From Candidatus Odyssella thessalonicensis (GTDB lineage Bacteria; Pseudomonadota; Alphaproteobacteria; Bin65), in NCBI GenBank assembly GCA_005240015.1, contig SBBV01000009.1, positions 1 to 13,511 of the forward strand: DNA of 13,511 nt, read 5' to 3'. The notes beneath the pieces were generated by a model that saw only the letters and a list, made by a program, of their open reading frames with translations, searched no databases and had not been told where the DNA came from. Shown piece by piece: positions 2,076-13,511 of this stretch (its first letter is position 1; each line of letters opens with the position of its first letter). The position numbers and the translations under genes were made by a program.

Positions 2076-2267
2076 ATGAAGAAGCTCGTCCTTGCCGCGG
2101 CGATTGCGGCTCTGTCGTTCAGCGCGGCGCTGGCCCAGCCCAGCGTCGTCGAAGCGAAGCGCGGCTGGAACAACCACGGCCCCGGCGGCGACTATTACAT
2201 GCAGCAGTATTGGGGCCCCAACTGCTACCCGTATCCGCACCCGGCTTATGGTTGGATCTGCTACTAA
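2076..2267 (+). CDS. Tiny secreted Tyr/Trp-rich peptide
   Basis: 63 residues. The start is well supported by AGGAAAGG eight bases before the ATG. MKK followed by an Ala/Leu core ends at AALA, giving a classic Sec signal peptide with cleavage expected near residues 20/21. The mature peptide of about 43 residues carries seven Tyr, three Trp, several Pro and Gly, two His (34, 55) and two Cys (50, 62), with the pattern GPNCYPYPHP near the end and a terminal WICY. The two cysteines could form a disulphide, or with the histidines bind a metal; that is inference. It stands alone between an unusually structured upstream region and a hairpin downstream. I do not recognise the family. Small aromatic-rich exported peptides of this type are seen in alphaproteobacteria, usually without known role. 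Confidence 0.8.
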   Translation: MKKLVLAAAIAALSFSAALAQPSVVEAKRGWNNHGPGGDYYMQQYWGPNCYPYPHPAYGWICY

Positions 2268-2344: not shown

Positions 2345-2959
2345 TCAGCGCCGATGCTTGCCCGGCGCCCAGCCGAACGGCGCCAGGAATTTCTCGCCCA
2401 CGGCGAGCGGCTCGGACTCGAGCGGCGTGCCCAGCGTGTCGTTCCAGCGGTTGAGGAATCCGAACAGCGCGATAACGCCGATGATCTCGACGATCTGCTC
2501 CTCGCTCCAGAACCTGCGCAAGGTCGCATACATGTCGTCGCTGACGCTGTTCGGCACGGAGGCGGCCGCCAGCGCGAAATCGAGCGCGGCGCGCTCGCCC
2601 TCGGAATAGAGCGGGCTCGTCGCGTACTCCCAGATCGCCGCGACCTTGGCGGCGTCGACGCCGAAGTGCAGCGCTCCGCCGGCGGTGTGCGCCATGCAGT
2701 AGCGGCAGCCCGCGGCTCGGCTCGCGACATGGGCGATGAGGCGCTTGAATCCGCGATCGACCCGGCTCTCGGGGTCCCAGACGGCGGCGACCATCTGCAC
2801 GAACGCCTTCACCAGCTTCGGCTTGCGCTGCATGATGAGCACGCTGTTCGGGACGAATCCGAGGTTCCTTCGGATGGCTTCGAACTCACCCTGGAGCTCC
2901 GGCGACGTCTCCTGCGGAAGCGGCTCCACCCGCGGGGTTGTTGCGGCTACTCGATCCAT
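2345..2959 (-). CDS. AhpD-like / carboxymuconolactone decarboxylase family protein (peroxidase-related)
   Basis: 204 residues from the ATG at 2959, chosen because GGAGG lies five bases upstream; the frame stays open to 3034 but that extension has no such signal. The hallmark is CRYC at 85-88 followed by His91 (CxxC-x2-H) in the helix ending the conserved HVASRAAGCRYCMAHT block. This is the redox centre of AhpD-type alkylhydroperoxidases and the larger peroxidase-related CMD group. The RRNLGFVPNSV block near 31 and the FLNRWNDTLGTPLE block near 169-182 are typical of the longer, about 200-residue members. No signal peptide is seen, so it should be cytoplasmic. It is the third gene of a probable leftward operon after the bufferin and DoxX genes, 100 bases downstream of the latter, suggesting a thiol/peroxide protective role during metal stress (inference). 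The exact substrate is unknown. Confidence 0.85.
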   Translation of the reverse strand: MDRVAATTPRVEPLPQETSPELQGEFEAIRRNLGFVPNSVLIMQRKPKLVKAFVQMVAAVWDPESRVDRGFKRLIAHVASRAAGCRYCMAHTAGGALHFGVDAAKVAAIWEYATSPLYSEGERAALDFALAAASVPNSVSDDMYATLRRFWSEEQIVEIIGVIALFGFLNRWNDTLGTPLESEPLAVGEKFLAPFGWAPGKHRR

Positions 2960-3059
2960 CGACTCCTCCGGCACAGGAACGGGCGCGAACCTCTCTCGGC
3001 GGCGAGTATCCTCCGCCTCGGCCCCCGACGCCATCCCGGGCTTGTGCTCGCCGCAGCGC

Positions 3060-3578
3060 CTACGCCGCCGCGCGACGCCGCCAGCGTGCGATCAGGCCGT
3101 CGACGGAGATAGGGCCGCCGCCGCGGATCAGCAAATAGCCGAAGGCCAGCATCCAGACATAGTGATACGGCGCCAGATAGTCCTCGTTGGCGTAACCGAC
3201 CGCGAAATGGATGACCGCGGTCATCACGAGAAGGCCCAGCGCGGGCAGGCGCGTGAACAGGCCAATGAAAAGGAGCACGGGAAGCACGATTTCGCAGGTG
3301 GTGGTGACGATCGCCCACAGCTTGGGATCGAACAGGCCGAGCTTGTACTCCTGCCCGAACAGGAACTCCTGGCTCTTCCAGTTCGTGACCCGCGCCAAGC
3401 CGGAGTCGAGAAAGATCTTCCCCATCCAGATGCGCGCCGCGAGGTTGAAGACCGGCTCGAGGTGGGCGGCGAGCAAATGCCCGAGGCGGTCGTGGGCGTC
3501 GAGCAGGCGGAACAGGAGCGAACGGGCACCCCTCTGCGCCGCGAGCGTGGCACCCGACGGCTTCGTGAGGATGGCCAT
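3060..3578 (-). CDS. DoxX family inner-membrane protein, possible BufD-like partner of the bufferin
   Basis: 172 residues from the ATG at 3578, which has GGAGA nearby; upstream in-frame sequence to 3755 is low-quality Arg/Gly-rich and overlaps the bufferin gene. Four membrane segments fit DoxX: about 44-58, 89-107, 111-129 and 136-153. Family-like features are RIWMGKIFLDSGLARVTNW near 49-67 and the charged Glu97 in TTTCEIVLPVLLFIGLFTR. DoxX proteins commonly sit in bufferin operons (called BufD there) and may handle electrons or thiols at the membrane, but their biochemical role is not settled. Here the gene follows the DUF2282 bufferin gene with a 110-bp spacer holding two hairpins, and precedes the AhpD-like gene. 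The usual BufB and BufC genes that would lie between bufA and doxX are missing. Family assignment is confident; function is not. Confidence 0.85.
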   Translation of the reverse strand: MAILTKPSGATLAAQRGARSLLFRLLDAHDRLGHLLAAHLEPVFNLAARIWMGKIFLDSGLARVTNWKSQEFLFGQEYKLGLFDPKLWAIVTTTCEIVLPVLLFIGLFTRLPALGLLVMTAVIHFAVGYANEDYLAPYHYVWMLAFGYLLIRGGGPISVDGLIARWRRRAAA

Positions 3579-3605
3579 GGAAGGTCTCCGGCCGGTCTGC
3601 GAAAT

Positions 3606-3670
3606 CCTCGGCGCGCCGAGGCGAGGCCCGTCCCTGCCGAAGCCGGGATGGCGGGCGCTTCGCCCCGGCT
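3606..3670 (-). promoter_or_regulatory. Intercistronic hairpins between bufferin and doxX genes
   Basis: In the gap between the bufferin stop (3689) and the DoxX start (3578), two stem-loops can form on the leftward transcript. The first pairs AGCCGG (3641-3646) with CCGGCT (3665-3670) and contains an inner GGCG/CGCC stem. The second is the palindrome CCTCGGCGCGCCGAGG (3606-3621), followed on the minus strand by ATTTCG. They could act as a partial terminator or as 3'-end protection, giving more bufferin than DoxX transcript. This is inference from position and pairing. Confidence 0.45.
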
Positions 3671-3688
3671 GCGCCTGCGCGTGAGGGC

Positions 3689-3982
3689 CTAGGACTTCGG
3701 CGCTTTCGGATTGACGCCCTTGCCGGCCTTGTCCGAGCCGCCCAGCTTCGTGCACTCGGCGGCATCCTTGACCGCCTTCCAGTCGGCGAGGTCATAATTG
3801 ACCTTCGACTGGCCCGCGCAGTCATGCGTCTTGGCGGCGTTGGCGCAGTCGTTCTGGCCGGCCTTGGCGACGCCCCAGCACTTGAAGCCTTGCGCGCCCT
3901 TGGTCTGGGCGGTGGCGGTGCCGGCGAGCGCGAGCGCACCGGCCACGGCCGAGGCGATGGCTATGGCGGAAAGCTTGGTCAT
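3689..3982 (-). CDS. bufA1: BufA1-type (DUF2282) bufferin metallophore precursor
   Basis: 97 residues. A Sec signal peptide covers residues 1 to about 26, and a strong AGGAGGAG ribosome binding site lies six bases before the ATG. The mature part shows the DUF2282 pattern: KCWGVAKAGQNDCAN at 34-48, then HDCAGQSKVNYD at 53-64, Trp68 and a last Cys, giving four cysteines (35, 46, 55, 77). Bufferins of this family are ribosomally made, exported copper-binding peptides whose cysteines are modified (5-thiooxazole groups are reported) by the DUF692/MNIO enzyme BufB with BufC. They are described as periplasmic copper buffers. Here DoxX follows, but neither BufB nor BufC is present in this window. The gene stands first in its operon behind a sigma-F-like promoter and diverges from the sigma factor gene. 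The last 16 residues are Gly/Lys/Pro-rich and variable. Family call is strong; modification is unproven. Confidence 0.88.
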   Translation of the reverse strand: MTKLSAIAIASAVAGALALAGTATAQTKGAQGFKCWGVAKAGQNDCANAAKTHDCAGQSKVNYDLADWKAVKDAAECTKLGGSDKAGKGVNPKAPKS

Positions 3983-4030
3983 TGCACACTCCTCCTGTTG
4001 CGAGGTCCCCGATCAGGGCCTCCGGGAAGG

Positions 4031-4056
4031 TTCGGCGGTGCCGCCCCTAAGGTTAC
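4031..4056 (-). promoter_or_regulatory. SigF-type ECF promoter of the bufferin operon (GTAACC-N16-CGAA)
   Basis: On the minus strand, GTAACC (complement of GGTTAC at 4051-4056) is followed after exactly 16 bases by CGAA (complement of TTCG at 4031-4034). As I recall it, this is the consensus reported for Caulobacter SigF promoters. The -10 element lies about 50 bases before the bufferin ATG at 3982, leaving a short leader containing the ribosome binding site. I found no second copy with correct spacing in the window, and none facing the sigma gene, so autoregulation from this element is not indicated. Confidence 0.75.
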
Positions 4057-4142
4057 GCGCTGCCACCTGCTCACACTCTCTTGACCGGGAGCCGGCCGAA
4101 GACCGCGTGAGGGCACCCGGGCTTCGCGGCTAAAGTCGAGCC

Positions 4143-4793
4143 ATGTCCGCTCGCGCACGTCATTCGCCGAGGCAAGATGCGCCGGCCGCCACTCCGGCCG
4201 CGGACGAACGCAGGCGCAGGGAGCCCGGGCCGTCGTCGGGCGGGGATGCCGATTGGTCGCGGCTCATGGCCCGCGCTCAGGACGGTGATGCCGCCGCCTA
4301 TCGCCGCCTTCTCGAGGAGATCGTCCCCTATCTCCGGGCGCTTGCGGCGCGGCATCACCGCGATGAATGCGATATCGAGGACACCGTCCAGGACGTCCTC
4401 CTCACCCTCCACGCGACGCGGCACGCCTACGACCCCGCCCGGCCGTTCGCCCCCTGGCTGGTTGCGATCGCCCGCCGACGCGCGATCGATCGCCTGCGAC
4501 AGCAGCGTCGCGCGGGCCGGACGGATGCGGCGCTGCGGGCGGAACATGAAACCTTTGCCCCGGCTCAAGCGAACCTTGAGCGCGCGGAGTTGGAACAGAA
4601 CGCGGTGCGCGATGCGGTCGAGCGGCTGCCGCCCGGCCAGCGCAAGGCCGTGACGCTGCTCAAACTGCGAGAGATGCCGCTCAAGCAGGCGGCCGAGGCG
4701 AGCGGCATGTCGATCGCGGCCCTCAAGGTCGCGATGCACCGCGCGTTGAGGAACTTGCGGAAGATGCTGGGCCGGGAGAGCGGAACGACGTGA
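4143..4793 (+). CDS. sigF: ECF RNA polymerase sigma factor, SigF-like
   Basis: 216 residues. Region sigma-2 spans about 38-122 (DWSRLMARAQDGDAAAYRRLL, then DIEDTVQDVLLTLH at 77-90, then RPFAPWLVAIARRRAIDRLRQ). Region sigma-4 spans about 153-207 (RDAVERLPPGQRKAV, then LKLREMPLKQAAEASGMSIAALKVAMHRALRNLRK, a helix-turn-helix). There is no sigma-1.1 or sigma-3 region, as expected for ECF factors. About 37 charged, low-complexity residues precede sigma-2. The ATG at 4143 has a weak ribosome binding site, so a different start is possible. The gene overlaps the NrsF gene and diverges from the bufferin operon, whose promoter matches the SigF consensus. It most likely activates that operon on metal stress when released by NrsF. 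The symbol is by analogy with Caulobacter SigF; orthology is not proven here. Confidence 0.88.
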   Translation: MSARARHSPRQDAPAATPAADERRRREPGPSSGGDADWSRLMARAQDGDAAAYRRLLEEIVPYLRALAARHHRDECDIEDTVQDVLLTLHATRHAYDPARPFAPWLVAIARRRAIDRLRQQRRAGRTDAALRAEHETFAPAQANLERAELEQNAVRDAVERLPPGQRKAVTLLKLREMPLKQAAEASGMSIAALKVAMHRALRNLRKMLGRESGTT

Positions 4794-5461
4794 TAACGAC
4801 GCCGGAGCTCATCAGATCGCTGACGGCCGACGCGGCGCCGGTACGGCGCCTGCGCCCGCCGCTGGTGCGCGCGATGCTCTGGCTTCTCGTGGCTGCGCTG
4901 GTGCTGGCACTCATCGGCGCCAGCCACGGCGTGCGGCCCGATCTCGCCGCCAAGGCGCGCGAGCCGGCCTTCGTCGTCGCCACGGCGGCTTCGCTCCTCA
5001 CCGGAGTCTTGGCCGCGATCGCCGCGTTCATGGCCAGTCTTCCCGACCGCTCGCGCCTCTGGCTGCTGCTTCCGCTACCGGCGCTGATCGCCTGGATTGC
5101 CACCATCGGCTACGGCTGCGTCGCCGCCTGGGTCGGCCTCGGGCCCGGTGGCGTTCGTTTGGCGGACGTCGCGGAATGCTTCGCCAACCTCGTCCTGATC
5201 AGCGCACCGCTTTGGCTGGCGCTGCTGTTCATGCTCCGGCACGCGGCGCGGCTCCGGCCGGCGGCGGCGACCATGATGGGGAGCCTCGCGGTGGCCGCGA
5301 TCACCGCGGCCGGGCTGCTGCTGCTCCATCCGCTCGACGCCTCGATCATGATCCTGGTCTGGAACCTCGGTGCGGCGGCCGTGGTTTTCGCGCTGGGCAG
5401 CGCTTTCGGCGGAAAGACATTGTCCTGGTTTGCACTGCGCCCGGTTCAGCCGCACGGCTGA
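4790..5461 (+). CDS. nrsF: NrsF (DUF1109) membrane anti-sigma factor
   Basis: 223 residues, six membrane segments at about 26-45, 61-83, 88-110, 127-149, 160-179 and 186-206. The start is GTG at 4790, overlapping the sigma stop (GTGA), so the two are translationally coupled. DUF1109/NrsF proteins hold their partner ECF sigma at the membrane and release it on exposure to metals such as chromate and cadmium. Visible signature residues are GYGCVAAWVGLGPGGVRLAD at 107-126, ECF with Cys130, and LILVW.LG-type sequence near 187-194. The Cys pair reported as important in Caulobacter NrsF is 50 residues apart (131 and 181, from memory). The equivalent of the second position here reads His180-Pro181 rather than Cys, so only one of the two may be kept; an additional Cys110 is present. 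A DUF3179 gene follows 21 bases downstream, probably in the same operon. Confidence 0.88.
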   Translation: MITTPELIRSLTADAAPVRRLRPPLVRAMLWLLVAALVLALIGASHGVRPDLAAKAREPAFVVATAASLLTGVLAAIAAFMASLPDRSRLWLLLPLPALIAWIATIGYGCVAAWVGLGPGGVRLADVAECFANLVLISAPLWLALLFMLRHAARLRPAAATMMGSLAVAAITAAGLLLLHPLDASIMILVWNLGAAAVVFALGSAFGGKTLSWFALRPVQPHG

Positions 5462-5482
5462 CCCGGCGGAAGGAGGCAGCCC

Positions 5483-6496
5483 ATGCTTGGTACTGCAACT
5501 GTTCGCTACCGCACGCGGGCCGTCGCAACGGTCATGGCCTTTGTGCTCGCCCTTGCCGCGCCCGAGCTTGCGGCCGGAGATGCCCCGAGCGACTGGAAAC
5601 GCGAATGGCCGCGCACGGATTTCTCGCGGGCGACCGTGCCGTTGTCCGAGATCCGCTCGGTCATCCCCAAGGACCGAATCCCCGCGATCGACCAGCCGAG
5701 GTTCGCATCGCTGGCGGCGGCCGCCTCGCTGGGGCTCGGCGAGCACGAACCTGTCATCTCGCTCGCGCTCGGGAACGAGGCCCGCGCCTATCCCCTGCGC
5801 ATCCTGACCTGGCACGAGATCGTCAACGACACGATCGGCGGCATCCCGGTGGCGGTGACCTACTGTCCGCTGTGCAATTCCGCCATCGTGTTCGACCGCC
5901 GGCTCGAAGGGCGCGTTCTTTCGTTCGGCACAACCGGCAAGCTGCGCCACTCCGATCTGGTCATGTACGATCGGGAGACCGAAAGCTGGTGGCAGCAATA
6001 CCTGGGCGAAGGCCTGGTCGGGACGCTCTCGGGCCGCAAGCTGACCATGCTGCCGATGCGCGTCGAGAGCATCGCGCGGTTCAGGCAGCGGTTCCCGGAC
6101 GGCAAGGTTCTCGTTCCCAACGATCCGGCCGCCCGAGACTATGGCCGCAATCCCTACGCGCGCTACGATTCGAGCGCGAAGCCCTTCCTCTACGACGGAC
6201 CGCTGCCCGAGGGCGTGCCGCCGCTCGAGCGGGTGGTCGTCGTCGACGGCAGCGCGTGGACATTCGCGCTGCTCAAGAAGCGCGGCCGGATCGAGCATGG
6301 GGATCTCGTTCTCACCTGGGAGACGGGGCAGAACTCCGTGCTCGACACCGCAATCATCAAGGACGGCCGCGACGTGGGCAACGTGATCGTGCAGCGGCGC
6401 GGAAAGGACGGCGCGCTTAGCGACGCCGTACACGACGTGAGTTTTGCCTTCGCCTTCCGCGCTTTCCACCCGAACGGGCGCATCCACCACGAATGA
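5483..6496 (+). CDS. Secreted DUF3179 protein with CPLC motif
   Basis: 337 residues, preceded by an ideal AAGGAGG six bases before the ATG. An N-terminal hydrophobic stretch (about 13-32, ending in AAPELAAG) looks like a signal peptide or anchor, so the protein should be exported. The DUF3179 domain fills the rest. Conserved blocks are RAYPLRILTWHEIVNDTIGG (102-120), VTYCPLCNSAIVFDR (125-139), GTTGKLRHSDLVMYDRETESWW (149-170) and DVSFAFAFRAFHP (318-330). Cys128 and Cys131 with nearby His111 and His156 could form a redox or metal site; this is inference, as the family is biochemically uncharacterised to my knowledge. It is the third gene after sigF and nrsF with only a 21-base gap, which links it to the same metal/redox stress response. 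Its C terminus is His-rich (RIHHE). Confidence 0.88.
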   Translation: MLGTATVRYRTRAVATVMAFVLALAAPELAAGDAPSDWKREWPRTDFSRATVPLSEIRSVIPKDRIPAIDQPRFASLAAAASLGLGEHEPVISLALGNEARAYPLRILTWHEIVNDTIGGIPVAVTYCPLCNSAIVFDRRLEGRVLSFGTTGKLRHSDLVMYDRETESWWQQYLGEGLVGTLSGRKLTMLPMRVESIARFRQRFPDGKVLVPNDPAARDYGRNPYARYDSSAKPFLYDGPLPEGVPPLERVVVVDGSAWTFALLKKRGRIEHGDLVLTWETGQNSVLDTAIIKDGRDVGNVIVQRRGKDGALSDAVHDVSFAFAFRAFHPNGRIHHE

Positions 6497-6514
6497 GCCG
6501 ATCGACGTCCGGCG

Positions 6515-6553
6515 CGCGGTGTTCCTCGCCCGCGCTGGACGCCGAGCACCGCG
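6515..6553. terminator. Possible hairpin between convergent genes
   Basis: CGCGGTGTTC (6515-6524) pairs with GAGCACCGCG (6544-6553), ten pairs with one G-T, around a 19-nt loop. No T-run follows on either strand. It lies just after the DUF3179 stop at 6496 and before the end of the opposing kinase gene at 6629, so a weak termination role is plausible. The rest of this 132-base gap shows nothing. Confidence 0.35.
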
Positions 6554-6628
6554 GCGACCGCGTGCATCGGCAGCGGATCGGGAACCGGCTTGGCGCGAAT
6601 CTCGGCCGGCGCCAGCGCCTGCTTCTCC

Positions 6629-8314
6629 CTAATCGGCGTTGTGCGCCGGGCCGCTCGGAGGTTGCGGCGGCCGCCGCGGGAGGGCGATCGTGACTTCGGT
6701 GCCCGCAGCGCCGCTGTTGATGCGCAGCTCGCCGTTGAGCGACTGCGTCAGGCGCTGCACCAGCACCATCCCGAGCGACTTCGACCGGCCGGCATCGAAG
6801 CCTTCCGGCATGCCCTTGCCGTTGTCGCTCACGACAAGTTCGCTGCTCCCCTCGGGGCCCGCCTTGAAGGCGACGCGGATGCGGCCCGGCGCGCCGGGCG
6901 CGAAGGCGTGCTTGATCGCGTTGGTGATGAGCTCGTGCGCCATCAGCGCCAGCGAAAGGGCCTGCTCGAGCGGCACCTCCAGCTTGTCGGCCGCGATCTC
7001 GAGGCGCGGCGAGCTTTCGCCGAGATAGGCGCGCGCGGTGTCCTGGCAGAACGCCTCGAGGAACGCGCCGAACTCGACCGTGCTGGCGAGATCGGCGCGG
7101 TAAAGATGGCGGAAGATCGTGCTCATCGAGATGATGCGTTGGCGTGCGAGAGCCAGCTGCTCGCGCGTCGCCGGATCGGCGCTGCGTGCCTGCAGGTGCA
7201 GGAAGCTCGCCAGGAGCTGCAGGCTGTTCATCACGCGATGCTGCAGCTCGCGCATCAGGATCTCGCGCTGGGCGAGGAGCTGCGCTTCGGCGTCGGCCAT
7301 GCGGTTGAGCGCGCGCGAGAGCGCGTCGAGCTCGGTCCCGGACTTGAGTTCGGGAAAGCGCACCTGACGCTCGCCCGCATGGTGGCGCTGTGCCGCTTCC
7401 ACCATGCGCGTCACCGGCCGGCGCACCAGCCGCTCGCCGGCGAACCACGCCGCGGTGATCGCGAGCAGCATCACGAACGCCATCAGCAGCATGTTGCGCC
7501 AGGTCGTCTGGTTGATCTGCGCCAGCGCGGCCGCCGAGTCGTAGCCGACCGAGATCAACAGGCCGGCCTCGGTCTTGGCGTAGCCGATGATGGCGGGACG
7601 CCCGAAGACGTCGCTGGCCTCGAAACTGCCGGCGCTGCCGGTCGCACGCGCCAGCGCGGCGGGCGGGACCTTGCGGCCGACGGCTTCCGTACCCGGCACG
7701 CGAATGATGATGGCGCCATCGCGGTCCAGGATGCTGAGATAGCGGTTGGTCCAGTCGTACCGATCGCGGAAACTGCGCCCTAGAAGGTCGAGATCGAGAC
7801 CAAGCCCGACGATGCCGGCCGGTTCGAGCTCCGAATCCGGCGTCATATACCGACGGGCCATGGGCAGAGCGCTGGCGCCCGTGACGCGTCCGCGCGCGAC
7901 CATCTTTCCGACCACCATCTCGGACTGCCGCAAGGCGTCGCTGACATAGTCGCGGTCGCCGAGGTTCACCCCCTCGGCTCTCGGCCAGCTGCACGTGACC
8001 CGCCCGGCGCGGTCGGTCACGAAGGCGGCGCGATAAAGCGGCAGATCGTTGACGATCGCGCGCATCAGCGAGGCGCAGCGCTCGGGTTCGGCGCGGAGGA
8101 TGCGCGCCTGCTGGCTGAGCGCCCAACTGAGCCGCCCGGCGCCTTGGACGATCGCCTCGAGCTGGCCGGCGATGAGCTGGGCCTGGTTCTGCGCCTGGAC
8201 GTGCAGCGCTTGGCGCTCGCGATCGCGCGTCTCGATGGTGTCGTAGGTGAGCAGGCCGATCGGCGGCACCAGCACCAGGCCCACGAGGATGCTCAAGCGA
8301 TTGCGCAGGCTCAC
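6629..8314 (-). CDS. Membrane sensor histidine kinase, Cache-HAMP-HisKA_2-HATPase
   Basis: 561 residues from the GTG at 8314; the frame remains open to a GTG at 8476. I prefer 8314 because the protein then begins SLRNRLSILVGLVLVPPIG, the usual start of this kinase type, though its ribosome binding site is weak. A first membrane segment lies at about 8-24. A periplasmic Cache-like sensor covers 25-265 (CSWPRAEGVNLGDRDYVSDAL at 108-128 and the later SILDRDGAIIIR block). A second membrane segment is at 273-292, then HAMP to about 345. HisKA_2 has LQHRVMNSLQLLASFLHLQ with phospho-His359. HATPase_c has HELITNAIKHA with Asn465, DNGKGMP at 497-503 and GMVLVQRL at 515-522. It autophosphorylates in response to an extracellular ligand, probably a small organic acid or amino acid by Cache analogy. 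No response regulator gene is adjacent, so its partner is unknown. Confidence 0.9.
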   Translation of the reverse strand: MSLRNRLSILVGLVLVPPIGLLTYDTIETRDRERQALHVQAQNQAQLIAGQLEAIVQGAGRLSWALSQQARILRAEPERCASLMRAIVNDLPLYRAAFVTDRAGRVTCSWPRAEGVNLGDRDYVSDALRQSEMVVGKMVARGRVTGASALPMARRYMTPDSELEPAGIVGLGLDLDLLGRSFRDRYDWTNRYLSILDRDGAIIIRVPGTEAVGRKVPPAALARATGSAGSFEASDVFGRPAIIGYAKTEAGLLISVGYDSAAALAQINQTTWRNMLLMAFVMLLAITAAWFAGERLVRRPVTRMVEAAQRHHAGERQVRFPELKSGTELDALSRALNRMADAEAQLLAQREILMRELQHRVMNSLQLLASFLHLQARSADPATREQLALARQRIISMSTIFRHLYRADLASTVEFGAFLEAFCQDTARAYLGESSPRLEIAADKLEVPLEQALSLALMAHELITNAIKHAFAPGAPGRIRVAFKAGPEGSSELVVSDNGKGMPEGFDAGRSKSLGMVLVQRLTQSLNGELRINSGAAGTEVTIALPRRPPQPPSGPAHNAD

Positions 8315-8583
8315 GGCCGCGCGCGCTCCAAGCCGGCCGGCCGCCGGTGGCCGGCTCGTGGATCGTTCCGAGGCGTGCGCATTCCCTTGCCGCCTGCGTG
8401 CATCCCGGGCGATTCTAGTACAGCGCCGACCCTCGGCACCACAGGCTTGGCTTACGCAGCGGACGCAAGCCGCCACAATCCTGCTGGACGAGAGCCGGGA
8501 CTTGCGTGTTTATTGAGGGCGTCCGGTTGCTTTCGGGGGGTCGAACGGCCGGGCGAGACACTCGAAGAGAAGGGGACTCGATC

Positions 8584-9030
8584 ATGCGCATTCTCGCTTT
8601 TGCCGGACTCGCCGCACTGGCGCTCGGCGCCTCCGCCTGCACCACGATGCAGAAGCCCGCCACGCCGCCGGCTCCGATGGCACCCAAGGCCGATCTGGTC
8701 GTCGTCGACCAGGCGGTGGTGCGCGGCACCGTCACGATCGATTCGGTCACGATGGAGCAGGATGGCTTCGTCGTGATTCACGAGACCACCGCCGACGGCA
8801 AGCCGGTGGCGCCGGGCTCGATCGGCCACGTCGCGGTCAAGAAGGGCACGGCCAACGAGGTGCCGATCCGGCTCACCAAGCGCGTGCGGAAGGGGGCCAA
8901 GCTCGTCGCCATGCTGCACGTCGACACCGGCCGGATGGGCCGCTACGAGTTCGGGCCGCGCAGCCAGGCGGAGGACAAGCCGCTGATGGTCGGCAACGCG
9001 CCGGTCATCAAGGCGTTCACGATCCAGTAA
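8584..9030 (+). CDS. DUF7282-domain lipoprotein
   Basis: 148 residues. The start at 8584 is backed by AAGGGG about ten bases upstream; an upstream in-frame ATG at 8506 would put 26 polar residues before the signal peptide and is rejected. The N terminus has a lipoprotein-type signal with LGASAC ending at Cys19, a slightly imperfect lipobox, followed by a Pro/Ala/Lys-rich tether (20-36). The rest matches the DUF7282 layout: VVVDQAVVRGTVTIDSVTM (39-57), QDGFVVIHE, PVAPGSIGHVAVKKG, VRKGAKLVAMLHVDTG (101-116), YEFGP and a closing VIKAFTI strand. It is all beta and probably a membrane-tethered periplasmic domain; the role of DUF7282 is not known. It diverges from the histidine kinase gene across a 269-base gap and is followed by a strong hairpin, so it is probably transcribed alone. 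Confidence 0.85.
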   Translation: MRILAFAGLAALALGASACTTMQKPATPPAPMAPKADLVVVDQAVVRGTVTIDSVTMEQDGFVVIHETTADGKPVAPGSIGHVAVKKGTANEVPIRLTKRVRKGAKLVAMLHVDTGRMGRYEFGPRSQAEDKPLMVGNAPVIKAFTIQ

Positions 9031-9037
9031 ACGGCAA

Positions 9038-9076
9038 GGCGGCGCGTCGCGGCATCGCCGCGATGCGCCGCCCTTT
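9038..9076. terminator. Strong hairpin terminator between convergent genes
   Basis: A 15-bp stem with a single G-T pair (left arm 9038-9052, right arm 9058-9072) closes a 5-nt loop CATCG and is followed by CTTT. It begins seven bases after the lipoprotein stop at 9030 and precedes the stop of the opposing gene at 9088. Confidence 0.75.
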
Positions 9077-9087
9077 CCGGCGCGGCC

Positions 9088-11322
9088 TCAGGGCGTGCGG
9101 TTGAGGCGCTCGATCACCTCGGGCGGAATGCGCAGCGCGTTGCGTCCGCCGACATCGACGAGGGTGCACGTACAGCCCTGCGCGCCGCGCTCGCGGCAGG
9201 CGGCGAGTGCCCGTGTTTGCGCGGCAGATTCGCTCTCGGGCGTCGCGTGCATGGCGAATGGCCCAAGCGGCACGCTGTCGGCGCGCACTTTGCTCCAGTC
9301 GATGCAATAGGCGAGCGCCTTGTGTCCGGTGGCTGCACGATAGCGGCCACCCTGCTGGCCGAGTTGGGCCATGATCCGATCATAAATGTCGGCGCGCAGT
9401 CCCGGCTCGGTATATCGCGGCCGCGCCTCGCGTTTCGCCTTGTCGAGGTCGGCGCGCACGGCCTTCACCGCCGGCGCGTCGCGGTCGAGCTTCTCGGCCT
9501 CGGAGACCGCGCGTTCGGCGGCGGCGAGGTCCTTGCGCTGGAGCGCGGCGCGCGCATCGGCGACGAGCTTCTGGATGCGCTCGGCCTTGTCGCGATCGGA
9601 GGCCGCGTCGCGCTTCGCCTTCTCGAGATCGGCGCGCACGGCTTTGACCGAGGCCGCATCGCGGTCGAGCCTTTCCGCTTCGACCACGGCGCGCTCGGCG
9701 GCGGCCAAGTCCTGGCGCTGAAGCGCGGCGCGGGCGTCGGCGACGAGGTTCTGGATGCGCTCGGCCTTGGCGCGGTCGCCCTGCTCGGCGCGCTTCGCCT
9801 GCTCGAGCCGGCGCTGCAAGCCGGCCCAGCCCGGATGGCGCGGATGGCGGCGCATCGCGTCGGCGAGAAGGCGCTCGGCCACCTCGAATCGGCTGCGCGT
9901 CAACGCCGCTTCGATCGCGGCGGTGAGCTGGCGGATCTCGTCGGCGCGCCACTCGGCGCCGATGCGCTCGCGGGCGAGGTCGGCACGGGCCTCGCGGATC
10001 TCGGGCAGGCCGGGCGCCAGGTCCTCGGCCTCGTCGAGCTGGCGCTCGGCCTGGCCGTAATCGCCGCGATCCATCGCCTGGTGCGCGGCGGCGACGTGCT
10101 CGCGTGCGCGCCGCAGCCGCCGCTGCCACTCCGCCTGGGCGCGGATCTGCTGCAGGCGGGTGCGGTAGTTGCGGAAGGCCGCGTCATTGGCGAAGCGGCG
10201 CTCGGCCTCGCTGATGAGGTACTCGGCTTCCCAGAGGCGATACGCGGCGAGCGCCTGCTCGATCGCCGCCACGTATTCCCCGCGCTCGCGGAACCGCCGC
10301 TCGCGCTCGGCCCTAAGCCGCGCCAGCTCGGCGCGCGCCTGCGTCAACTCCGCCAGGTTCGGCACGAGGCGCGCCGCCTGCTGCAGCAGCGTGTCGGCGG
10401 CGGCGAAGTCGCCGGCATTGGCGTAGCGCCGCGCCTCGGTGACGAGACGCCGCGCCTGGTCGAGGCGCAGCCGCGCCTCGCGCTCGCTCCTCAACTGCGC
10501 GAGCCGCTGCGCGAGCTGGTCCCATTGCCTCTGGCCCGGAAACCGGGCGCGGCCTTCGCTCAACAGCCGCTCGGCTTCGGCGAAATTGCCGCGCCGCAAC
10601 GCATCTTCGATCGCGGCGGCAAGCGCGTGCTGGTCGAGCGCGCCCGGGTCGGCGGGAAATTCCGGATAGACGAGGCTCGTGCGCTCGCAGTCGAGCCGAT
10701 CCGCCTCCGCGTCGGGCTGCGCGCAGCTCAGCACCGCTCCATCCTGCTCGCGCAGCCAGACGCGGTCGCGTCCCTCGAAGCGCGCCGCGCCGAGCAGCGT
10801 GAGGTCGTAGCGGTTGTCGCGCGTGAGCGGATGCTCGGAGCAGCCGCTGTCCGCGCACCAGAGCAGGCGTGTGCGCGTGGGATCGGTGTCGTGGCGCGCG
10901 AGGATCGCGGTCTTGCCGACCAGCCGGTCGCGCTGCTTCACCGAGAAGGTTCCGACGAGGACGAATTCGCCCGCGTCGAGCTCGAACTTGGCGCAGCCAT
11001 CCGCGGTGCAGCGGAAGACGTGCGGGCGGCCGTCCTGGTAACGCGGGTGCTGGAACGCGAGATAGAACGCGCGATCCGCAAAGCCGAGCGAGGCGATCGC
11101 CGCCGCCGGCAGGTCGTCGTCGGCAATCCGCTCGAAGCGGAGCCTGGCGCAGCGGCCATCCTGCACGCAGAGCCACGGCACGCCCTCGGCGCGGAATGCC
11201 CAATGATTGGCATGCGGGTTGAACAGCAGCGGCGTATAGGGCGCCGGGCGCGCCTGCTGCGCGAATGCCGAAGAGCCTGCGGCGGTCAGCGCGAGGGCCG
11301 CCGAGAACAAGATCGAGCGCAT
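9088..11322 (-). CDS. Large secreted protein with four Cys-pair motifs, seven TPR-like repeats and a Cys-containing tail
   Basis: 744 residues. Residues 1-22 form a Sec signal peptide (ending SSAFAQQ); GGGGG lies shortly before the ATG at 11322. Three parts follow. Residues about 30-220 are beta-rich with four regularly spaced Cys pairs: C52/C58, C105/C110, C156/C161 and C200/C212. Residues about 230-635 hold seven helical-hairpin repeats of about 45-60 residues, each with an A-L-x-R-x-x-x-x-x-A-E-R core (such as RGNFAEAERLL, GDYGQAERQLDEAE, QDLAAAERAVVEAE), resembling TPRs. The last two repeats (516-575 and 576-635) are nearly identical 60-residue units. Residues 640-744 form a tail with C673, C709, C717 and C719 (AYCIDWSKV, ACRERGAQGCTCTLVDV). 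The layout suggests a periplasmic scaffold or binding protein. I recognise no named family for the end domains. Confidence 0.85.
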   Translation of the reverse strand: MRSILFSAALALTAAGSSAFAQQARPAPYTPLLFNPHANHWAFRAEGVPWLCVQDGRCARLRFERIADDDLPAAAIASLGFADRAFYLAFQHPRYQDGRPHVFRCTADGCAKFELDAGEFVLVGTFSVKQRDRLVGKTAILARHDTDPTRTRLLWCADSGCSEHPLTRDNRYDLTLLGAARFEGRDRVWLREQDGAVLSCAQPDAEADRLDCERTSLVYPEFPADPGALDQHALAAAIEDALRRGNFAEAERLLSEGRARFPGQRQWDQLAQRLAQLRSEREARLRLDQARRLVTEARRYANAGDFAAADTLLQQAARLVPNLAELTQARAELARLRAERERRFRERGEYVAAIEQALAAYRLWEAEYLISEAERRFANDAAFRNYRTRLQQIRAQAEWQRRLRRAREHVAAAHQAMDRGDYGQAERQLDEAEDLAPGLPEIREARADLARERIGAEWRADEIRQLTAAIEAALTRSRFEVAERLLADAMRRHPRHPGWAGLQRRLEQAKRAEQGDRAKAERIQNLVADARAALQRQDLAAAERAVVEAERLDRDAASVKAVRADLEKAKRDAASDRDKAERIQKLVADARAALQRKDLAAAERAVSEAEKLDRDAPAVKAVRADLDKAKREARPRYTEPGLRADIYDRIMAQLGQQGGRYRAATGHKALAYCIDWSKVRADSVPLGPFAMHATPESESAAQTRALAACRERGAQGCTCTLVDVGGRNALRIPPEVIERLNRTP
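9418..9777 (-). repeat. Tandem 180-bp in-frame coding duplication
   Basis: Two adjacent 180-bp units (9598-9777 encoding residues 516-575, and 9418-9597 encoding 576-635) give proteins alike at nearly every position. Both read DR.KAERIQ.LVADARAALQR, then DLAAAERAV.EAE.LDRDA and VKAVRADL.KAKR. The DNA differs mostly at third codon positions, so the duplication is not brand new but is under protein-level constraint. The five earlier helical repeats of the same gene are far more diverged. Confidence 0.85.
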
Positions 11323-11511: not shown

Positions 11512-11570
11512 CTATCGGCCGATAGAGGCTCGCATCGGCCGAAATCCGTACCTGGACCGCTAGCGGCCGA
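11512..11570. repeat. Cluster of GGCCGAT palindromic repeats
   Basis: CTATCGGCCGATAG (11512-11525) is a perfect 14-bp palindrome. A second copy of its core, CATCGGCCGA, lies at 11533-11542, and a third, AGCGGCCGA, at 11562-11570, overlaps the last codons of the secreted paralogue gene. They could be operator sites or part of a transcript-end structure. No T-run follows. Confidence 0.4.
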
Positions 11571-12162
11571 TGAAGACCGCAGTGCTCCAGTTCTCGCCGT
11601 CATCGGCCTCGATCGCGAAGTATTCGCGCGTCGGCCGCATGTGAACGGCGACTTGGCGGCGGAAGCCGTCGCGCCAGGTCACGTCGTAGATGCGCCACAC
11701 GCCATCGGCCCGGTAGATCACGCGGCCCGTATCCGAGACCATCGTGACCGGCCGCCCGCGATTGGCATAGGCGAAGGTGATGAGCTCGGCCGCGCGCGCC
11801 GTATCGCCGAGCCACACCGACGTCGCAGTCGACGGCGGCTGCGACGAGAGAACCGGCGGGGCCGTGGGCGTCACGACCACGGGCGGCGCCGCCGGGGCGA
11901 TCGTCAGCAGATACTCCGACGGATAGCCGAGCGGACGCTGGCTGTGGAACACGACTTCATCCGGCTGCAAGGTCCGGCATGTCCCACCGCGCGCGTGCAC
12001 CCACAAGATCCAATGGTTATTGGGCGCGGCCGTGTCGTAGGTCGGCCCGATCGCCGCCCCGAACATGTCGAAACAATGCGCAGGCACGGCCCCGGCAGAC
12101 GCAAGCGGAGCCGCGACGCCAAGCGCGAGCGCGCTGGCGAACACAAGCTGTTTTGTGCGCAT
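11560..12162 (-). CDS. Secreted protein of unknown function, paralogue of 738-1331
   Basis: 200 residues. The start at 12162 is fixed by AGGAGG six bases upstream; the frame stays open for another 1.3 kb upstream, but that is a shadow of the transporter gene. A Sec signal peptide covers about 1-26 (SAGA). The mature protein has two cysteines (C30 and C62), exactly 32 apart as in the paralogue. Shared blocks are AHCF, IGPTYDT, WVHARGGTCR, YPSEY, DTGRVI, WRIYDV, FRRQVAVHMRP and NW near the end. The middle (88-113) is a Pro/Thr/Val-rich linker that differs between the copies. The conserved N-terminal Cys pair, the variable linker and the conserved C-terminal block suggest two small exported domains. 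Function unknown. It lies downstream of the EamA transporter gene with a 212-base gap, so it probably has its own promoter. Confidence 0.85.
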   Translation of the reverse strand: MRTKQLVFASALALGVAAPLASAGAVPAHCFDMFGAAIGPTYDTAAPNNHWILWVHARGGTCRTLQPDEVVFHSQRPLGYPSEYLLTIAPAAPPVVVTPTAPPVLSSQPPSTATSVWLGDTARAAELITFAYANRGRPVTMVSDTGRVIYRADGVWRIYDVTWRDGFRRQVAVHMRPTREYFAIEADDGENWSTAVFIGR

Positions 12163-12270
12163 GGCAATCCTCCTCTCGGACTCGCATTCCGTTGCCCGGT
12201 GCGGAAAGAAGAACACGCACTGGGCCAGCATGTTAACGCCGCCCCAAGCGGTCCGGTTCCCAGTTTTCCG

Positions 12271-12324
12271 GCGCGCGCGCAGCCGTACGTGCTGCACCGT
12301 TATGTGAACGGCGCGCGCGCTTTT
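12271..12324. repeat. GCGCGCGCGC-flanked three-way hairpin
   Basis: Two identical, self-complementary GCGCGCGCGC runs (12271-12280 and 12311-12320) enclose two small perfect hairpins, GCAGC/GCTGC (12279-12283 with 12291-12295) and CCGTT/AACGG (12297-12301 with 12307-12311). A TTTT follows on the plus strand. It lies in the non-coding gap between the EamA stop at 12375 and the secreted paralogue start at 12162. It may be a structured 3' end of the transporter transcript or simply low-complexity DNA. Confidence 0.4.
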
Positions 12325-12374
12325 CGCGGGCCGGAGGCTAACGTAGGGGAGATCGCTGCGTTCCCGCCGGCTTT

Positions 12375-13307
12375 TCAGGCGATTGACTGCCGACTTGCGC
12401 GGGAAGGGGATGCGCCGGCGGGAGGCTGTGCGGCCGTGCCGAGGCGCGAATCGGTGGTGGCGACCGCAATGCCCGCGAACACGGCCACGACCCCGAGCAC
12501 GAGATTGATGCCGAAGGGCTCGCCGAGCAGCAGCCCCGCGAGCACGCCCGCCGCGACCGGATTGACCGTCATCGTCGCGGTCACGCGCGTCGGCGTGGCG
12601 CGCTGCAGCGCCCAGATCCACAGCCAGAACGCGGCGGCGCCTCCGAACATGCCGAGATAGAGGAGCGCGCCCCATTGCGCGAGCGTGAAATCGAGGACCG
12701 GCGCGAAGCTGCCGCGAAGAGCCGCCACCGTGGTCACCGCGGCCGCGCCCACGCCCATCCCGGCGACGAGGAAGCCGATGGCGCTCGAGCGCGCCACGAG
12801 CGGCTTCGACCAGATGCTGTAGAGCGCCATGCACAAGGTGGCGCCGGCCATGATGAGGTCGCCGCGCCAGGCGCCGGCGGGCGCGGTCGCGAGGCCGGCG
12901 CCGAGCGCCACGGCGACGCCGGCGATGGCGAGCAGCACGCCCGCGGTCTTGCGCGGCGTGAGCCGCTCGACGCCGAGCAGAGCGGCGAGCGCCATCGTGA
13001 CCAGCGGCAACACCGATAGGGCCAGCGCGCCGCGCGCGGCCGTGGTGTGGGCGAGCGCGAGGTTGTAGAGCACGAAGAAGACGGCGAAGAAGAGCAGGCC
13101 GAGCAAGCACACGCCGATCCAGTCGCGCCCCTGCGGCCAGCGCGCCTCCAGCGCCAGCGGCAGCAGAAGCAGGAAGCCGAGGCCGAAGCGGAACGACGCC
13201 AGCGCCGCCGGATCGAGGTCGAGCGCGACATAGCGCGTCGCCACCGCCGCCGCACCGCCGAAAGTGCAGGAAAGCACGCCGGCCAAGACGCCGATCCGCT
13301 CGCTCAT
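12375..13307 (-). CDS. EamA/DMT-superfamily transporter
   Basis: 310 residues with ten predicted membrane segments (about 5-27, 35-54, 63-81, 90-112, 122-140, 150-168, 176-197, 211-231, 241-261 and 266-284), the two five-helix EamA repeats. Typical features are ATRYVALDLDPAALASFRF near 23-41, ALLGVERLTPRK closing the fourth helix, and in the second repeat TVNPVAAGVLAGLLLGEPF near 247-265. GAGG lies seven bases before the ATG at 13307. Members export amino acids, nucleotides or other small metabolites from the cytoplasm; the substrate cannot be read from sequence. The C terminus (about 286-310) is a Pro/Ser/Arg-rich cytoplasmic tail. No regulator gene is adjacent within the window; the 200 bases upstream carry no gene. 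Confidence 0.9.
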   Translation of the reverse strand: MSERIGVLAGVLSCTFGGAAAVATRYVALDLDPAALASFRFGLGFLLLLPLALEARWPQGRDWIGVCLLGLLFFAVFFVLYNLALAHTTAARGALALSVLPLVTMALAALLGVERLTPRKTAGVLLAIAGVAVALGAGLATAPAGAWRGDLIMAGATLCMALYSIWSKPLVARSSAIGFLVAGMGVGAAAVTTVAALRGSFAPVLDFTLAQWGALLYLGMFGGAAAFWLWIWALQRATPTRVTATMTVNPVAAGVLAGLLLGEPFGINLVLGVVAVFAGIAVATTDSRLGTAAQPPAGASPSRASRQSIA

Positions 13308-13454
13308 CGCCGAACCTCATGCGCGAGCGCGCAGGTTCGCCGGCGCGGATAATCGAAGCAATTCCGCGGCGGGGAATGAAGGCGCGCGGCCTCAGATTCG
13401 GCGCCGCTCTGGCGCATGTTCGCATGACGCGGAGTCGGTGAGCGCTTTTAGAAA

Positions 13455-13490
13455 CCCCTTTTCCCGGGGGAGACGGGGCAGGGGATGAGG
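13455..13490. repeat. C/G-rich hairpin element of a type often dispersed in proteobacterial genomes
   Basis: CCCC-TTTT-CCC followed by GGGGGAGACGGGG can fold back (CCCC at 13455-13458 with GGGG at 13474-13477; TCCC with GGGGA inside), and continues as CAGGGGATGAGG. Sequences of the form GGGGAGAGGGGCAGGGG-TGAGG recur between genes in many proteobacteria, so this is probably a REP-like dispersed element. The rest of 13308-13511 shows no gene or promoter I can support. Confidence 0.4.
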
Positions 13491-13511
13491 GGGCCGACGT
13501 GCGTCTCACAC

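Follow-up and report, generated by a model that had tools for sequence, protein, structure and literature searches.

The stretch analyzed here, a 13,511-nt contig of the Candidatus Odyssella thessalonicensis draft genome (hereafter, the window), carries bufA1, a gene for a precursor of the bufferins (a family of small secreted peptides that bind copper), that is followed directly by doxX and lies divergent from genes for an extracytoplasmic function (ECF) sigma factor of the SigF type and its anti-sigma factor, NrsF. The maturation genes bufB and bufC are missing from it, and a complete bufA-bufB-bufC-doxX operon is present on another contig of the genome, C304. We think it likely that the window holds a SigF-inducible satellite bufferin locus whose BufA1 peptide is modified in trans by the BufB and BufC proteins of C304. 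On sequence grounds, the most likely account of the locus is that of an additional copy under stress control which draws on BufBC from elsewhere in the genome.

The window locus and the canonical operon on C304

Genes in the window were called with Pfam profiles at the family cut-offs. The six-gene layout proposed in a sequence-only reading of the window was recovered in full, each gene in its place and above its cut-off (bit scores are given against the cut-off):

2345–3034 (−): CMD / AhpD-like peroxidase-related protein (Pfam PF02627, 45 against 23; NCBIfam TIGR01926, 84.6 against 81.8)
3060–3578 (−): doxX (PF07681, 57 against 23.6), a paralogue of the C304 doxX by tblastn and tree
3579–3688 (−): bufA-doxX intergenic gap of 110 bp, without a bufB or bufC remnant by local alignment against shuffles
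3689–3982 (−): bufA1, encoding a DUF2282 precursor of 97 amino acids (PF10048, 58.4 against 22.4)
4031–4056 (−): exact match to the SigF-type promoter motif GTAACC-N16-CGAA, 48 bp ahead of bufA
4143–4793 (+): ECF sigma factor, SigF type (PF04542/PF08281, sigma regions 2 and 4)
4790–5461 (+): nrsF, anti-sigma factor (PF06532, 98 against 26.8), its start overlapping sigF by 4 bp
5483–6496 (+): DUF3179 protein (PF11376, 284 against 27), after a 21-bp gap from nrsF

Profiles for bufB and bufC had no match anywhere in the 13.5-kb window. The sequence-only reading had seen neither room nor remnant for these genes between bufA1 and doxX, and alignment agrees: the gap scored 24 against the bufBC region of C304 (mean of 200 shuffles, 24.4) and 23 against that of the same-genus genome G010 (shuffle mean, 25.8), as against 122 for a 110-nt positive control. 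The DUF2282 assignment, on which that reading depended, also held at 58.4 bits against 22.4.

In the draft genome, G000 (3.52 Mb in 624 contigs, 74% complete), the window is contig C74. A DUF692 search of this genome, which the sequence-only reading had called for, returned a single match, on C304 (E 3.7e-102), within an operon ordered bufA-bufB-bufC-doxX whose Pfam matches identify BufB as DUF692, BufC as DUF2063 and the last gene as DoxX. DUF2282 matched twice in G000, on C304 and in the window; DUF692 and DUF2063 genes adjoin bufA on C304 and not in the window. In genome G010, the operon is present once, in its canonical form, and DUF2282 matches once. Three possibilities had been left side by side, namely maturation enzymes acting in trans, a bufferin working unmodified, and other redox partners; the single DUF692 gene on C304, with its bufC, bufA and doxX, supports the first, and the genome does not favour the others.

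The window BufA1 has four Cys residues (35, 46, 55 and 77) in its mature part, at the positions of those in the C304 BufA, and its start, MTKLSAIAIASAVAGALALAGTATAQ, resembles a signal peptide as judged by eye only. The window DoxX scored 43.2 bits on the HvfX family Cu-binding RiPP maturation model NF050144, below the required 80. The CxxC motif of the AhpD-like protein is CRYCMAH, and by eye its true start may be an internal ATG near 2959. The DUF3179 protein has a signal-peptide-like start and a CxxC motif, CPLC; given the 4-bp overlap of sigF and nrsF and the 21-bp gap to the DUF3179 gene, these three genes probably form one transcript.

Paralogy, history and constraint

The window BufA1 is 85.7% identical to the C304 BufA over 91 amino acids (83.3% over 96), and the two DoxX proteins are 70.8% identical over 168 amino acids (tblastn). 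In phylogenetic trees the window, C304 and G010 sequences group together with support of 100/100 for BufA and 100/99 for DoxX. Within this group the two trees disagree: for DoxX, C304 pairs with G010 and the window falls outside (98/92), and for BufA, the window pairs weakly with C304 (84/49). Because the DoxX tree joins C304 and G010 without the window, the bufA-doxX duplication looks older than the split between G000 and G010. The window pair is most simply read as a partial copy of the C304 operon.

Changes between the two BufA proteins are unevenly spread, with 2 differences in the 34 positions from 27 to 60, where three of the four Cys residues lie, and 13 in the 36 positions from 61 to 96 (Fisher p 0.003, for a split point picked after the alignment was seen). 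For bufA and doxX, respectively, the ratio of nonsynonymous to synonymous substitution rates (dN/dS) in the comparison of window with C304 is 0.37 and 0.39, and by this measure the window pair is still under constraint.

Of 10 family relatives, all but G005 have a DNA match to the DUF3179 gene. Two G010 genes were considered as orthologs of the window locus and rejected: a CMD gene (L199), a 54.9% homologue whose context differs, and the DUF3179 gene (L200), which has no nrsF or bufA within 5.4 kb around it, about 0.7 kb of this upstream. A scan of a contig set with the window BufA found two loci, L036 with bufB, bufC and doxX, and L037 with a bufB that runs to the contig end.

Control by SigF

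The motif before bufA1 has zero mismatches to GTAACC-N16-CGAA, the sequence published as bound by SigF in Caulobacter (PMC3511200), and has the mark of a SigF regulon member. When two mismatches are tolerated, 7 matches occur in the window against 5.2 expected, which is no excess; on these counts the weight of the motif is in its exactness and position, not in the number of matches. The whole of G000 has four exact copies, against seven for a control pattern read backward. The genome has two sigF-nrsF pairs, on C74 and C416, and the divergent region of each contains one of the four copies; the copies on C126 and C247 were put down to chance after the surrounding frames had been viewed. The second sigF-nrsF pair (L040) lies within 6078–7801 (−) of C416, and its exact motif, at 7641–7666 (+), precedes a divergent gene, truncated at the contig end, for a secreted-looking protein without a Pfam match.

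A looser form of the motif, GTAAC-N16..18-CG[AT] within 250 bp, was searched for in 153 bufA upstream regions from 146 annotated loci, a few of these regions belonging to Buf2-like frames weakly caught by the bufA profile. Where the locus has nrsF, it was found in 20 of 22 regions (19 of 21 with the window left out); where there is only a sigma-factor match, in 12 of 24; and where there is neither, in 13 of 107 (Fisher 7e-13 for the first class against the last). The reversed pattern was found in 1 of 153. The corresponding counts for the strict motif were 6 of 22, 7 of 24 and 4 of 107. Within the family, NrsF was found only in G000 among 11 genomes, and none of 11 canonical loci, C304 included, has the looser motif. 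Because the motif is enriched beside nrsF and absent at C304, the window bufA is assigned by sequence to its local SigF and the C304 operon is not.

In Caulobacter, substitution of NrsF C131 and C181 raises SigF-dependent expression, and the SigF response is to chromium and cadmium and is not triggered by agents that generate reactive oxygen (PMC3511200). The window NrsF retains the Cys shared by all 20 aligned NrsF proteins (that of Caulobacter not among them), and it has a further Cys at a position where 8 of the 20 have one. Since another widely kept Cys column (Cys in 12 of the 20) has His in the window protein, the details of sensing may differ from those of Caulobacter.

bufA loci without bufB across genomes

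In a class sample of 385 genomes, DUF2282 was present in at least 135 and DUF692 in at least 149. Among the matches listed, 114 of 150 DUF2282 places had DUF692 within 5 kb, and the remaining 36 were the window and 35 places in 34 loci. By tblastn, bufB was present in 17 of these 34 loci and absent from 14 (15 places); L054, L055 and L064 were set aside because the contig ends just downstream of bufA. This leaves 16 bufB-less places among 147 decidable ones of the matches listed, the window included, with divergent bufBC possible at five loci with short upstream sequence: L050 and L058 (less than 30 bp), L060 and L068 (1.2 kb; L060 also has only 2.0 kb downstream) and L051 (2.8 kb). In a phylum sample, DUF2282 was present in 125 of 397 genomes. 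Of 100 loci examined there, 95 had bufB within ~4.5 kb and 5 did not; 15 further listed places were left out of this set, and L204, which lies outside it, is canonical. DUF692 occurs elsewhere in 17 of the 19 genomes that have a bufB-less bufA locus (12 of 14 in the class sample and 5 of 5 in the phylum sample). L051 (G378) and L058 (G210), both from family f91, encode candidate bufferins without any MNIO.

Genes for bufA and then directly doxX were found in 8 of the 146 annotated loci, the window and seven other loci of Pseudomonadota: L066 (G061), L110 (G623), L156 (G554), L160 (G676), L162 (G654), L163 (G726) and L176 (G571). The last five differ from the window in having bufBC in the same locus, where the window's is on another contig. 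In L160 this bufBC is accompanied by a second DUF2282 bufA, and in L156, L162, L163 and L176 by a Buf2-like 6-Cys precursor, a label given by Cys count and resemblance. The arrangement in L156 and L160, with doxX-bufA divergent from sigF-nrsF, resembles the window but for the bufBC in the locus. What the sequence-only reading had named as grounds for giving it up, a layout confined to this genome together with degraded bufB and bufC, was not found: the gap holds no remnant, and bufA-doxX units without intervening bufBC recur elsewhere. In the comparison of neighbourhoods that it had proposed, this unit recurred; the complete layout, which includes CMD as well as DUF3179, was seen in none of the 146 annotated loci but the window.

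Genome G623, a single contig of 100% completeness, has its only DUF692 beside another DUF2282 bufA (L134), ~1.5 Mb from its bufA-doxX pair (L110). In L160, both precursors are DUF2282 proteins that share one DUF692, and everything is on one strand. G571 (L176) was dropped as proof of trans-modification of BufA1 because its bufBC has its own Buf2-like precursor, and the frames first taken for bufA next to bufBC in L156 and for an additional bufA in L163 were recognized as Buf2-like, with weak matches to the bufA profile.

In L162, L163 and L176, all of genus g300, bufA1-doxX-sigF stands back to back with an operon of Buf2-like precursor, bufB and bufC. Each of these genomes (G654, G726 and G571) has a single DUF692 match, and one enzyme may thus serve two precursor families in this genus. 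In L047 (G370) and L048 (G084), a bufB-less bufA is followed by an ECF sigma factor gene, with a DUF3179 gene ~3 kb downstream on the same strand. DUF3179 is near bufA in 3 of 20 bufB-less loci (the window, L047 and L048) against 1 of 95 bufB loci of the phylum set, where L047 and L048 are from one genus and L047 was a seed of the DUF3179 profile.

Proposed model

From the genes, their paralogy, the bufBC in the genome, the promoter motif and the constraint on the pair, we infer a course of events that comprises the order of steps at the origin of the locus, induction, co-transcription of the CMD gene, trans modification and metal binding. A partial operon copy would have kept bufA and doxX, with bufBC lost or never copied, and then come under SigF. 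Metal (or thiol) stress would act on the membrane anti-sigma factor NrsF and free SigF, which would then start transcription at the GTAACC-N16-CGAA promoter, reading bufA1 and doxX and probably the CMD gene as well. BufB and BufC, expressed from C304 and acting as a complex, would modify the extra BufA1 precursor on its two central Cys residues, and the modified peptide would be exported and bind copper in the periplasm. In bufferins, thiooxazoles on the central Cys residues, a disulphide between the outer ones and a 305-nm band have been described (PMC12452194, PMC13097082).

Several observations weigh against modification in trans. The C304 operon has no SigF motif, so that SigF would not co-induce precursor and enzyme. 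Genomes G210 (92% complete) and G378 (77%) have bufA and no DUF692 that could be found in them, which suggests that bufferins acting unmodified may exist. In L156, L162, L163 and L176, the neighbouring bufBC has a Buf2-like precursor of its own, and these loci therefore do not show trans-action on BufA1. Finally, with G000 at 74% completeness in 624 contigs, further MNIO genes may be missing from the draft.

Peroxidase-type neighbours and alternative explanations

A CMD or AhpC/TSA gene on the same strand within 2.5 kb of bufA was found in 5 of 20 bufB-less loci (the window, L060, L065, L066 and L068) against 1 of 123 bufB loci (L114; p 0.0002), under a rule that is biased against loci with bufBC in between. 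Two further bufB loci, L169 and L151, have such a gene farther away or on the opposite strand. Over the whole locus and either strand, such a gene is counted in 5 of 20 bufB-less loci and 3 of 123 bufB loci (p 0.0014), or in 4 of 19 and 3 of 123 with the window left out (p 0.006). L060, L065 and L068 are from one genus, which reduces the five positives to three lineages (the window, G061 and that genus), and the peroxidase profiles were partly seeded from the positive loci themselves. The redoxin seeds included one 17-amino-acid piece and one wrong-frame piece of L065, and the seed for NADH dehydrogenase type II (NDH2) was a wrong 12-amino-acid piece; the redoxins of L060, L065 and L068 are supported by Pfam matches. 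L110 has bufA-doxX and no CMD or AhpC/TSA gene. We therefore treat the association of peroxidases with bufB-less loci as a lead and not as a result, at the level of gene neighbourhoods.

Two of the positive loci stand out in their layout. L066 (G061) has CMD-YHS-bufA-doxX on one strand, the YHS match being below the Pfam cut-off, and L065 (G376) has bufA, AhpC/TSA and a gene for a fused DoxX-DoxX-NDH2 protein. This fusion, at 3026–5608 downstream of the AhpC/TSA gene and the bufB-less bufA, may hint at a role for DoxX.

These neighbourhoods underlie the reading that BufA1 acts unmodified, its thiols or disulfides forming with CMD, DoxX and DUF3179 a periplasmic redox or peroxide-detoxifying module without BufBC. 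The enrichment over whole loci and the layouts in G061 and G376 speak for it, as does the presence of selenoproteins with CxxU and UxxC motifs in the AhpD-like and DUF3179 families (PMC9312934). We regard it as unlikely: BufBC is present in the genome, the three-Cys region is nearly unchanged from that of a paralogue paired with BufBC, and the enrichment comes from three lineages through profiles partly seeded from them. The sequence-only reading had let the two CxxC proteins take part in place of BufBC. The link between bufB-less loci and peroxidases does recur, and a replacement of BufBC is not borne out, with DUF3179 present in 9 of 10 relatives and the G010 copy having no nrsF or bufA nearby.

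Rather improbable, too, is a second kind of bufferin system, in which a BufB-less bufA-doxX unit works with a peroxidase partner (CMD in the window and G061; AhpC/TSA with DoxX-DoxX-NDH2 in G376), DoxX would feed the peptide electrons from quinone or NADH, and the whole would serve as a module for thiol redox or protection from peroxide in the periplasm, whether or not the peptide bears thiooxazoles.

That bufA1-doxX is a decaying duplicate, the functionless remainder of an operon copy that lost bufBC, strikes us as decidedly improbable. The window pair is a partial copy, and no copy was found in G010, of the same genus (one DUF2282 match in a draft of 92% completeness), as decay would have it; yet the frames are intact, all four Cys residues are retained, dN/dS is 0.37–0.39, the exact promoter motif stands before bufA, and the DoxX tree puts the copy before the G000/G010 split (98/92).

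A binning error, with C74 from another organism than C304, is hardly credible: the draft is in 624 contigs and NrsF was found in none of the others of the 11 family genomes, but 8568–9650 (DUF7282 and the next frame) has 78% DNA identity to G010, DUF7282 and DUF3179 are 72.9% and 74.7% identical to their G010 counterparts in amino acids, the window BufA groups with C304 and G010 (100/100), C416 of the same genome has the second sigF-nrsF pair, and contamination is listed at 0.08%.

Other genes in the window

A 63-amino-acid open reading frame at 2076–2267 (+) has a signal-peptide-like start, an aromatic tail with Pro and Cys, and no Pfam match. At opposite ends of the window, the protein of 738–1331 (−), which also has no Pfam match, and part of the open reading frame at 11560–13509 (−) look secreted and, by eye, similar to each other.

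Comparison with known systems

The sequence-only reading had ranked this locus as the strongest candidate for an unusual system in the window, which is too strong: stand-alone Buf1 precursors without MNIO linkage have already been described, a published survey counting 21 of 4072 DUF2282-bearing genomes without MNIO, and the same paper asks whether such precursors are modified from another locus or not at all (PMC12452194). The window and C304 BufA pair, with 2 of 34 differences in the three-Cys region and one BufBC found, is a concrete case for that question and suggests that the supply of precursor and the supply of enzyme can be under different control. The associations with peroxidases and with DoxX-NDH2 are a lead on the role of DoxX in bufferin operons. 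The main text of PMC12452194, apart from its figures, has no mention of AhpC, redoxin or peroxi-, and in open-licence texts, figures excluded, we found no published report of a SigF-controlled bufA-doxX split from bufBC or of the peroxidase association.

Like the stand-alone Buf1 precursors (PMC12452194), the window has a DUF2282 gene without an adjoining DUF692 gene and a DUF692 gene elsewhere in the genome; unlike them, its bufA keeps doxX, its own SigF promoter motif and a peroxidase-type neighbour. In the Buf1 bufferin operon of Caulobacter (CC3252–CC3257; PMC3511200), a SigF promoter, GTAACC-N16-CGAA, likewise drives the genes for a DUF2282 precursor and DoxX, and sigF-nrsF adjoin. There, DUF692 and DUF2063 genes (CC3255 and CC3256) lie between the DUF2282 and DoxX genes, whereas the window has neither and instead has CMD and DUF3179.

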